This document shows, piece after piece, positions 16,385 through 19,616 of a stretch of 19,623 nucleotides of DNA; the stretch's first letter is position 1; every line of letters begins with the position of its first letter. Under the pieces are notes generated by a model. It ran no database searches, was not told where the DNA came from, and saw nothing but the letters and a program-made list of their open reading frames with translations. This DNA comes from a bacterium (GTDB taxonomy: Bacteria; UBA9089; CG2-30-40-21; SBAY01): NCBI GenBank assembly GCA_040757115.1, contig JBFLYA010000033.1, positions 1 through 19,623 of the forward strand, read 5' to 3'. The position numbers and the translations under genes were made by a program.

Positions 16385-16413
16385 TTGACAAATATAGATT
16401 TATTTATTATAAT
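16385..16413 (+). promoter_or_regulatory. Perfect consensus promoter ahead of tRNA-Leu
   Basis: TTGACA (16385-16390) and TATAAT (16408-16413) match the sigma70 consensus in all twelve bases, with 17-base spacing. Transcription would start near 16420. The first strong plus-strand product is tRNA-Leu, 185 bases downstream; the S23-type gene and perhaps gyrA may be read through. Confidence 0.8.
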
Positions 16414-16575
16414 ATTAGTAACCGTTCAGGTAGTCTGGTATCTGGGTGTCTAAGTGTCTGGGTTACATAGACTACCAGACACATAGACACCCTTTACTCA
16501 AAATTGTAGGATTTGTTACTATCCTGATTTCCTGGCTGTTAACTGATTGCTGATGGCTGAACGCTTACTAATATT
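16411..16575. repeat. Inverted-repeat element C (GTAAC-ended), inside the tRNA leader
   Basis: AATATTAGTAACCGTTCAG (16411-16429) and CTGAACGCTTACTAATATT (16557-16575) are reverse complements with one mismatch. An inner pair, GGGTGTCTAAGTGTCTGG (16444-16461) and CCAGACACATAGACACCC (16475-16492), also differs at one base. The first bases overlap the -10 box. There is no coding content. The end word GTAACCGTTCAG links it to elements A and B. Confidence 0.7.
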
Positions 16576-16604
16576 AAAGAAAAGAGGTATTGATTTTCAA
16601 GGAT

Positions 16605-16693
16605 GCCGAAGTGGTGAAATTGGCAGACGCACTGGACTCAAAATCCAGCGGGTGCTTGCACCCATGTGGGTTCGACTCCCACCTTCGGCACCA
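16605..16693 (+). tRNA. tRNA-Leu (anticodon CAA)
   Basis: The acceptor stem is GCCGAAG (16605-16611) with CTTCGGC (16683-16689), then discriminator A and an encoded CCA at 16691-16693. The anticodon arm CTGGA-CTCAAAA-TCCAG places CAA at positions 34-36, reading UUG. A long variable arm (GCGGGTGCTTGCACCCAT region) and the T-arm GTGGGTTCGACTCCCAC confirm a class II leucine tRNA. It is transcribed from the consensus promoter upstream, through element C. Confidence 0.97.
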
Positions 16694-16698
16694 GTTTA

Positions 16699-17159
16699 AG
16701 CGAATTAGAGATTAGAGATTGGAGAATAAAAAATGGCAAAGTCCTTTTATGCTCTAAAGATATGGCAGAAAGGATATGAGATTCTTATGAAGATCTATGA
16801 GATTACTTCTACATATCCTGTAGAGGAACGATATGCCCTGGTAATTGATACTCGTAGATCAGCCAACTCTATAATTGCCAACATTGCTGAGAGTCATGGT
16901 AGATATTATTTTGCTGATAAAATACGAGTGTTGTATACCGCAAGGGGTGAACTAGAGGAGACAAGGAGTCACTTAAAGGTTGCTTGTGGAAGAAAATACA
17001 TTTCAGAGGAAAAGTTTAAAGAAATAGATGAAGAATATGAAGGGTTATCTAAGGGAATTAGCGGTTATATTCAAAATATTGAGTCCCAAAAGTCTAATGA
17101 GTAATAACCTTATTCCACTAATCTACTAATTCACTAATTCGCTAATTCACTAATTCGCT
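16699..17159. mobile_element. IR-bounded cassette carrying the S23-type gene
   Basis: AGCGAATTAG (16699-16708) is the exact reverse complement of CTAATTCGCT, which occurs twice on the far side (17134-17143 and 17150-17159). Similarity extends inward: the left side goes on AGATTAGAGATTGGAGAATAA, and the complement of the right side reads GAATTAGTAGATTAGTGGAATAA. The arms enclose only the four-helix-bundle gene. Intervening sequences in bacterial 23S rRNA have the same plan, an S23 gene within a stem. Here the cassette begins six bases after the tRNA CCA rather than inside rRNA. Mobility is inferred. Confidence 0.5.
16733..17104 (+). CDS. Four-helix-bundle protein, S23 family (23S rRNA intervening-sequence protein type)
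   Basis: This 123-residue protein starts MAKSFYALKIWQKGYEILMKIYEIT and contains YPVEERYALVIDTRRSANSIIANIAESHGR. That is the signature of the S23/four-helix-bundle family (usual form: FPxxExxgLxxQlRRAavSIpsNIAEGxgR). The rest (LYTARGELEETRSHLKVA) also fits: an SxxElext helix. The length is typical. Family members form homopentamers in known structures and were first found as reading frames in 23S rRNA intervening sequences; their biochemical role is unknown. GGAG lies eight bases before the ATG. The gene lies just after tRNA-Leu, between inverted repeats, and before gyrA. The Gln of QLRR is Asp here (IDTRRS), a minor departure. Confidence 0.9.
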   Translation: MAKSFYALKIWQKGYEILMKIYEITSTYPVEERYALVIDTRRSANSIIANIAESHGRYYFADKIRVLYTARGELEETRSHLKVACGRKYISEEKFKEIDEEYEGLSKGISGYIQNIESQKSNE

Positions 17160-17165
17160 AATTAT
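17117..17165. repeat. Tandem CTAATTCG/CTAATTCA repeat
   Basis: Six or so units of CTAATTCx or CTAATCx occur back to back between the S23-type gene and gyrA. They provide the right arm of the inverted repeat bounding that gene. The last unit abuts the gyrA ribosome-binding site (GGAGGG, 17166-17171), so gyrA may have received its upstream region from the cassette. Confidence 0.75.
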
Positions 17166-17174
17166 GGAGGGAAA

Positions 17175-19616
17175 ATGAAAAAAGAAACGATTATTCCGAT
17201 TTATATTGAAGATGAGATGAAAAATTCTTATCTTGATTATGCGATGAGTGTCATTATCGGTCGGGCATTACCTGATGTCCGGGACGGGCTAAAACCCGTG
17301 CATCGCCGAGTCCTTTATGCTATGAATGAATTAGGTATGGATTCAGATAAACCTTATAAAAAATCTGCCAGAATCGTTGGTGAGGTTTTAGGTAAATATC
17401 ATCCCCATGGGGATATGGCAGTTTATGATTCTATCGTCCGTATGGTTCAGGATTTTTCACATCGCTATCCTTTAATTAATGGTCAGGGTAACTTTGGTTC
17501 GATTGATGCTGATGCCCCGGCGGCGATGCGATATACTGAGGTTCGACTGCATAAATTCGCCGAAGAATTACTTAAAGATATAGACAAACAAACCGTAGAT
17601 TTTGTCCCAAATTTTGATGAAACACTAAAAGAACCCACCGTCCTGCCTGCCAACTTGCCTAATTTACTCCTGAATGGCTCTTCGGGAATTGCTGTTGGTA
17701 TGGCAACCAATATCCCACCTCATAATTTAGGGGAATTAGTGGATGGAATTATTGCCTTAATTGACAACCCAGCAATAGATATTTCAGAGTTAATCCAGAT
17801 TATCTCAGGGCCAGACTTTCCTACTGGCGGGTCAATTTTTGGTATTGATGGCATAAAGGAAAGTTACAACACCGGTCGAGGCAAAATCATCTTACGGGCT
17901 AATGCGACAACAGAATCATTGAAAAGTGGTAAAGAAGCGATTATCATTACTGAAATACCATATCAGGTCAATAAAAAAAGTCTTATTGAAAAGATTGCAG
18001 AATTGGTTAAGACGAAAAAGATAGAGGGAATATCCGCACTTCGGGATGAATCTGACCGTGATGGCATTCGGATATTCATCGAATTAAAACGGGATGAAAA
18101 TCCGCAGGTCATCTTAAATCAACTTTATAAACATACCCAGATGCAAGTTACCTTTGGTGTGATTATGTTGGCTTTAGTGGATAATCAACCTAAGGTATTG
18201 AACCTCAAAGAGATAATGGAACTATACCTCAAACATCGCCAGGAGGTCATTATCCGAAGAACTAAATACGACCTGAAATTAGCCGAAGAGCGCGCTCATA
18301 TCCTTGAAGGATTAAAAATTGCCCTGGCAAATCTTGACCAGGTAATTAAGACTATTAAAAAATCTAAGAGTCCACAAGAGGCAAGGATAGCATTAATTGC
18401 CCAGTTCGAATTAACGGAAAAACAGGCACAGGCTATCTTAGAAATGCAATTGCAAAGATTAACGGCATTGGAACAGGATAAACTGAATGCTGAGTATTTA
18501 GCCTTGATAAAGACTATTGCCGAACTAAAATCTATCCTTGATTCTAAACAAAAAGTTATGAATTTAATTAAAAATGATTTACTTAAGATAAAAAAGGACT
18601 ACGCTGACCCAAGACGAACTCAAATAATTAAGGAGGCAGTGGAATTTAATATGGAAGACCTGATTGCCGATGAAAATATGGTCATCACTATCAGTCATAC
18701 CGGCTATATTAAGCGATTACCACTGACTACTTATAAAATGCAGCATCGTGGTGGAGTCGGTGTGACCGGTATGATTCCTAAAGAAGAAGATTTTGTTGAC
18801 CAACTATATATTGCCTCAACACATAATTATATCCTCTTTTTTACCACTAAAGGTCGGGTTTATTGGTTAAAAGTCTATGATTTGCCAGAGGGAGGTCGAA
18901 CAAGCAGAGGGAAAGCGATTGTTAATCTACTTAAATTAAGCGAAGATGAAAAGATTGCTACATCTATACCGATTGCAGAATTTAATGACCAAGATTATTT
19001 GATTATGGCGACGCGCAAAGGATTGGTTAAGAAAACACGCCTGATTGAATACAGTCGGCCAAGGAGTGGTGGAATTATTGCCTTATCATTAATCGGAGAT
19101 GATGAATTAATAAAGGTGGAACGAACAAATGGAAATGATGATATTATTTTATCCACGATGTCTGGCAAGGCAATTAAGTTTAGCGAAAGCCAGGTTCGTC
19201 ATACAGGCCGAACGGCTTCAGGTGTTCGAGGAATAAGATTAAGAAAAGGGGATTATGTTGTTGGTATGGAGGTCGCTCGTCAAGGATGGACACTCTTGAC
19301 TATTACCGCTAACGGCTATGGGAAAAGAACAGAATTTGATGCGTATCGTCGTCAGTCAAGGGGAGGAATGGGGGTCATTGACATTAAAACCGAGCCACGA
19401 AATGGACCAGTCGTAAGTATTTATGAGGTAAATGATGATACTGAAGTAATAATGATTACTGCCTCCGGGATGATCATTCGTTGCCCGGCACGAGGCATCT
19501 CCACCATCGGCAGAAATACACAAGGAGTTAGATTAATCAGACTTAAAGAAGGAGATAAAGTAGTTGATGCCGCACCAGTAGTTAGTGAAGAAAAGGAAAT
19601 AACTGCCTTGAACTAA
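17175..19616 (+). CDS. gyrA: DNA gyrase subunit A
   Basis: This 813-residue type IIA topoisomerase subunit begins with [37 protein letters not shown] as in GyrA. The catalytic tyrosine is Tyr120 in [10 protein letters not shown]. The quinolone-determining loop reads [10 protein letters not shown]: Met81 stands where E. coli has Ser83, while the acidic residue (Asp85, E. coli Asp87) is kept. The C-terminal half forms the beta-pinwheel, with repeats such as [23 protein letters not shown] and RNTQGVRL. The GyrA-box position holds QHRGGVG (523-529) rather than QRRGGKG; QSRGGMG occurs later at 727-733. With GyrB (not in the window) it would negatively supercoil DNA. GGAGGG precedes the ATG by three bases. 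ParC is an alternative, but length, domain order and closeness to typical GyrA favour gyrase. Confidence 0.93.

Follow-up and report, generated by a model that had tools for sequence, protein, structure and literature searches.

An S23 gene cassette with heptad arms between tRNA-Leu and gyrA, and its proposed kinship to the intervening sequences of 23S rRNA

In the stretch of bacterial DNA analysed here (19,623 nucleotides, hereafter the window), an intact gene encoding an S23 four-helix-bundle protein is located between tRNA-Leu and gyrA, enclosed by complementary arrays of short tandem repeats. We consider it reasonably probable that this is one copy of a widespread S23 cassette, selfish or mobile in character and kin to the S23 intervening sequences (IVSs) of rRNA, whose heptad arms would be recognised by the S23 pentamer. 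The features computed directly were the arms, their period and motif, the link between repeat and protein, the gene-less arrays of similar units and the turnover of cassettes between sister species. The analysis suggests that S23 cassettes are one widespread, fast-moving kind of genetic element.

S23 is a small gene known from extra pieces, or intervening sequences, in 23S rRNA, for example those of Coxiella and Leptospira, and the site that defines an rRNA IVS lies within the 23S rRNA gene, for example at helix 45. To our knowledge, S23 proteins and the rRNA insertions have gone for decades without a function. The link proposed here would join this puzzle to that of the heptanucleotide repeats of cyanobacteria and Xanthomonas, likewise without a function; under it, each S23 protein should recognise its own heptad, and, if true, it would account for many of the so-called four helix bundle proteins as well as for unstable short genomic repeats.

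The cassette of the window

The original prediction described an intact S23 gene bounded by a sequence and its complement, starting shortly after the CCA of tRNA-Leu and separating this tRNA from gyrA. The features listed in Table 1 bear this out, with tRNA-Leu, the S23 ORF and gyrA all on the same (+) strand and five bases between the CCA (16691-16693) and the 5' arm, but the arms are longer than quoted: both are repeat arrays exceeding 10 bases and not a fixed 10-mer, and AGCGAATTAG (16699-16708) is the opening of the 5' arm. The units measure 7 nt in the 5' arm, where a direct tandem array of lag 7 spans 16704-16725, and 8 nt in the 3' arm, which comprises five CTAATTCR-like octads (TAGYGAAT when reversed) with a period of 8. 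The complementarity between the two arms reached a local score of 14.5, whereas the 99th percentile for control window pairs was 13.0. The S23 ORF matched PF05635 (9.9e-30, 103.3 bits, cut-off 33.8) and TIGR02436 (96.7 bits, cut-off 24 bits), and XCC0516 (2gsc) is a related protein of solved structure. The tRNA was the sole Rfam match in the window, and the cassette lies outside 23S rRNA. Neither fixed terminal inverted repeats (TIRs) nor a target duplication were found at the ends of 16699-17163, and no close relative with a truly empty junction was found. The contig of the window contains no reverse transcriptase, the matches of this genome being on other contigs, and PADLOC defence-system annotation gave no match.

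Table 1. Features of the window in and around the S23 cassette
Feature	Position	Strand	Basis or remarks
MITE-like element, 151 bp, gene-less, upstream of tRNA-Leu	16418..16568		Read from sequence
tRNA-Leu (caa), CCA encoded, 5' neighbour	16605..16693	+	ARAGORN; Rfam RF00005
5' arm: AGCGAAT, then heptads TAGAGAT TAGAGAT TGGAGAA	16699..16726	+	Fits motif TRGNGAN
S23 / four-helix-bundle protein gene, intact, 123 aa	16733..17104	+	PF05635, TIGR02436; PDB relative 2gsc
3' arm: CTAATTCA/CTAATTCG octad array	17117..17163	-	Reverse complement of 5' arm (TAGYGAAT)
gyrA, 3' neighbour	17175..19616	+	Orthologues found

S23 genes and their arms in this genome and elsewhere

The genome to which the window belongs (G000; 4.3 Mb in 462 contigs) contains 27 S23 matches, and a second genome of the same genus (G001) contains 33. 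Reading of the flanks revealed complementary arms around nearly every S23 gene of this genome. When the upstream flank of each locus was locally aligned to the reverse complement of the downstream flank of the same locus, 25 of 26 loci scored 11.5-44, as against a median of about 8.5 with other loci; in L003, L010 and L016 the best score was low, or was due to outer terminal repeats instead of arms. The arm units are diverse, among them CGGGACT, GTAGGAA, ATAGTTT, GCAGAGG, AAAAGTC, GTCTGGT, ATTCACA, GTAGTCA, AGTAGAG and AAATTCC. The survey of other S23 genes of this genome that had been proposed along with the original prediction thus reveals inverted arms, but with other units in place of GCGAATTAG. 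As a general arm sequence GCGAATTAG was rejected, being confined to the window cassette and to a gene-less MITE-like repeat. A 17-mer, GCGAATTAGCGAATTAG, has 30 further occurrences in the genome and none when read backwards, and the eight copies that were read are all within the gene-less MITE-like repeat with nested arms.

Other arrangements were also noted. The S23 cassette of L001 (contig C42 of this genome, 5322-8645) sits amid copies of a 25-nt CRISPR-like repeat (GACCTGATGAATAAGGGATTGCGAC), and a 955-aa frame of this contig contains a reverse transcriptase domain (C42:881-1486) that may belong to a protein of the RT-Cas1 type. In L025 and L026, divergent S23-like domains are found in frames of 195-209 aa, with the downstream arm apparently within the reading frame.

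The S23 genes of relatives, compared by means of fragmented assemblies, also lie in matched inverted arms, and over all pooled loci such arms were present in 114 of 131. In named genomes, which span many phyla and archaea, 64 of 78 S23 loci reached a score of at least 13, compared to 5 of 346 control window pairs drawn from the named loci themselves; this threshold was chosen after a first look at the data and applied identically to the controls, and the named set (80 loci) was collected with a single S23 query and is consequently biased to that subfamily. Arms were also present in all eight plasmid S23 loci examined (named isolates, mostly cyanobacteria). In plasmids of Pseudanabaena galeata (L278) and Anabaena sp. 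90 (L280) the S23 cassettes are inserted between cas6 and cas4; their S23 proteins are 41% identical, and their arms are different and unusually long. The original prediction of an IVS equivalent attached to a tRNA transcript stands with respect to the IVS-like plan, but such cassettes are not tied to tRNA transcripts, since other copies reside in operons, such as that of cas6 and cas4, or in transposon-like repeats. No S23 match was obtained among 50,697 phage records, and a search for an rRNA location of weak-arm S23 loci gave no Rfam match in 20 loci. S23 cassettes apparently do not depend on a reverse-transcriptase partner; such a requirement was not supported, since RVT_1 had no match in 16 of 25 S23-bearing genomes. 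One further genome (G026) displays 16-19 divergent S23-like matches on contigs C2, C3, C7, C12 and C13, arranged as close opposite-strand pairs about 20-200 nt apart.

Period 7 was the best in 88 of 104 arms, and arm identity at lag 7 was 0.67, as opposed to 0.24-0.33 at lags other than multiples of 7. The median arm length over the pooled S23 loci was 32 nt, and the 5' arm was purine-rich in 104 of 114. Individual units differ between cassettes, but a degenerate motif, TRGNGAN, is common to the arms (information 2.19, compared to a maximum of 1.47 among 100 column-shuffled nulls), and the TAGAGAT of the 5' arm in the window conforms to it. Heptad similarity follows S23 protein identity (Mantel r 0.54, p about 0.001, no permutation above 0.25; partial r 0.37 after removal of arm base composition; 0.38 within named genomes alone), although among named pairs below 50% S23 identity the correlation was only 0.10, and linkage within the cassette could partly account for the overall link. 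Because heptad similarity tracks protein similarity, we infer that the S23 protein may recognise its own heptad arms. The protein is apparently under selection, as the pooled dN/dS of close S23 pairs, based on few changes, is about 0.3.

Cassette turnover and gene-less arrays

Comparison of the tRNA-Leu/gyrA junction in relatives, which had been proposed along with the original prediction, revealed that the window cassette is missing there, a result that goes against the refutation envisaged at the time. In G001, whose gyrA product is 99% identical to that of the window, the junction harbors another S23 gene, 36% identical in protein, whose arms are made of other units (GGGAGTTTA). Two more distant relatives have no gene at this junction: in G003, of the same family, the spacer is short and has no cassette, and in G002 it consists of a gene-less hairpin of TTATGAA units. 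When nine S23 sites of this genome were compared with G001, two were conserved, one was disrupted by another insertion, two contained a different S23 and four had no S23 gene. The two conserved cassettes have arm repeats with three differences of 7 or 14 nt and a further one of 41 nt, and at the second replaced site the S23 of G001 is 22% identical, with different arms. Of the four sites without S23, two are cleanly empty where this genome has a transposon-like repeat (TTAA and 8-bp duplications), one retains a heptad array without the gene and one has another array. These differences indicate turnover of entire cassettes within a genus. Nevertheless, no target-site duplication was definable for arm-only cassettes such as that of the window, and no insertion or excision event was observed, which we count against a mobile cassette; homologous recombination spreading old alleles could also explain why one site holds different cassettes.

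Tandem heptad arrays are also abundant without the gene. A 400-kb sample of this genome contains 57 of them, with a median of 5.3 units, nearly all gene-less and a few, L210 6604-6633 among them, being S23 gene arms. At period 7 the sample had about 14 arrays per 100 kb, compared to 0-1.75 at periods 5, 6 and 8-12, and no heptad array was found in about 509 kb from five genomes without S23. The array units resemble the S23 arms of the same genus (median similarity 0.80) more than other sets of equal size (0.61), the own-genus arms being the better match for 52 of 57 arrays (p 4e-10). Eight inverted heptad pairs were found in the sample, all at most 145 nt apart. Among 155 genomes, motif arrays were present in 27 of 61 that are S23-positive and in 11 of 94 without a TIGR02436 match, taken as S23-negative (p 7e-6), and outside the phylum of this genome in 15 of 45 as opposed to 8 of 91 (p 6e-4). 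The association, though strong, is not absolute, and since a reversed control pattern also matches S23-rich genomes it measures heptad arrays generally, in addition to the motif.

The MITE-like element upstream of tRNA-Leu in the window is bounded by the TIRs GTAACCGTTCAG / CTGAACGCTTAC and by an 8-bp target duplication, TAATATTA (16410-16417 and 16569-16576). It contains GTCTGGTGTC-type arms that resemble the S23 cassette arms of L010, and L005 has a TIR related to that of this element, with an 8-bp duplication. In L028-L035 a gene-less MITE-like repeat with the TIR TATAGCASTTATTARTC displays nested arm pairs, with AAATTCC as the outer pair and GCGAATTAG as the inner, as though a cassette had inserted into a second one and the genes of both had been lost. 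A further short heptad array (ATTTGGAATTTGGAATTTGTGATTTG) is located at 81-106 of the window, 5' of its first ORF.

Proposed role of the arms and comparison with known systems

The gene upstream of the cassette is co-directional in 100 of 109 cases, compared to 79% of control pairs, with neighbour orientation taken from naive ORF calls that are noisy in GC-rich genomes. Since cassettes are mostly co-directional with the upstream gene, like rRNA IVSs, the S23 protein is probably translated from the host transcript. We hypothesize that the cassette is a selfish or mobile element, of a kind shared with the S23-encoding IVSs of 23S rRNA, which would settle in sense orientation in transcribed intergenic spots and have its S23 protein supplied by the host transcript. 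The S23 homopentamer would then recognise the heptad arrays at both ends of the cassette, perhaps with one unit per subunit, an attractive idea in view of the median of 4.6-5.3 units per array and of the homopentameric protein; the octameric 3' arm of the window counts against this heptad model. Such recognition would serve the maintenance and mobility of the cassette and, in trans, those of gene-less arrays.

The arms might instead work at the RNA level, pairing in the transcript and being kept for that purpose, so that RNase III or other nucleases would cut the stem, release the S23 message and spare the host tRNA or rRNA. We regard this as rather unlikely, even though the plan is shared with the rRNA IVSs, themselves substrates of RNase III (PMC4990558), the co-directional arrangement is what would be expected, and the transcript folds much as the original prediction anticipated, the arms pairing and the tRNA cloverleaf being kept in the predicted structure of 16605-17190 (z -3.69). 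Against it, this score includes the tRNA, partnerless single arrays are abundant, and arm mismatches compatible with G.U pairing are no more common than those that break pairs (132:131 over 114 loci). As this ratio carries no signal of selection for RNA pairing, pairing is not an evident selected function and a DNA-level role is preferred; the arms may act as DNA, for example as terminal binding sites. A site of translational or transcriptional autoregulation, at which the S23 pentamer would bind purine-rich heptads 5' of its own start and stop its own synthesis, with mobility provided only by capturing transposons, would agree with the position of the purine-rich 5' arm close upstream of the start codon and with the presence of several cassettes inside transposon-like repeats of the ordinary kind, bounded by TIRs and target duplications. 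It leaves unexplained the inverted downstream arm, the gene-less arrays and the exchange of arm-only cassettes at the same site, and appears to us quite improbable.

The heptads could, finally, be ordinary polymerase-slippage minisatellites of intergenic DNA, among which S23 genes are merely tolerated or accumulate. In fact, the arm arrays of sister species differ mostly by whole units, and some bacteria have an excess of heptameric repeats (PMC4692102). However, minisatellites would account neither for the specific motif, the inverted gene-specific pairing, the co-variation with the protein and the enrichment in S23-bearing genomes, nor for the finding that no other gene in the 400-kb sample is enclosed by an inverted heptad pair at a distance of 250-900 nt, and this already disfavoured explanation has very little probability left. 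Returning to recognition of the arms by the S23 pentamer, a bolder form of it, which we put forward as possible but tentative, holds that S23 proteins are sequence-specific heptad-binding pentamers and that the mobile cassettes they define form a large bacterial and archaeal class that had escaped recognition. Every lineage of the protein would have its own repeat code, and the rRNA IVSs and the orphan heptads of cyanobacteria and Xanthomonas would be the rRNA-resident and gene-less forms.

Like the S23 rRNA IVS, the window cassette has an S23 ORF, stem-forming terminal inverted repeats and a sense orientation in the host transcript. For the Coxiella IVS, a terminal stem of 28 bp is described along with S23p and with tandem heptamers (GACAGAT), variable in number, just 5' of the start codon (PMC4990558), and the likeness in plan noticed in the original prediction thus extends to heptamers 5' of the ORF in variable number. 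The same study presents S23p as a homopentamer, citing the Xanthomonas structure. It considers the Coxiella protein to be in decay and unlikely to be expressed, which counts against our reading of the cassette, and mentions a hypothesis in which the IVS had been mobile and its ORF had a part in that mobility (PMC4990558). Unlike the S23 rRNA IVS, the cassettes described here lie outside rRNA, in many different copies per genome, with purifying selection on the protein and an arm unit that varies by cassette. As the window cassette has all the testable features of an IVS but the 23S rRNA location, we do not call it an rRNA IVS; given that the Coxiella IVS carries both S23 and heptamers, the IVSs of rRNA appear to be a branch of some broader class.

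The window S23 also resembles Avd, the DGR accessory protein, in belonging to the four-helix-bundle superfamily (NF033474, 2.7e-08; PF22296, 1e-07), but both matches are below cut-off (34 compared to 80 bits and 32.9 compared to 40, respectively), and the window has no reverse transcriptase. Likewise, some S23 cassettes are the cargo of MITEs or non-autonomous IS-like repeats that have TIRs and duplications of 8 bp or of TTAA, whereas the ends of the window cassette are repeat arrays. A literature search, with most subscription papers beyond its reach, found no paper tying S23 genes to heptad arms outside rRNA and none joining the Coxiella IVS heptamers with the Xanthomonas and Nostoc heptads. 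The latter repeats (GGGAATC in Xanthomonas, with about 70 inverted pairs per genome, and GGGGAYT in Nostoc) display a four-unit preference, have no known function and were discussed as G-quadruplexes, with S23 not mentioned (PMC4692102). Together with the cyanobacterial STRRs, they are similar to the cassette arms in being tandem intergenic heptads with about four units preferred, and cyanobacterial plasmid S23 genes carry heptad arms like those of Xanthomonas and Nostoc.
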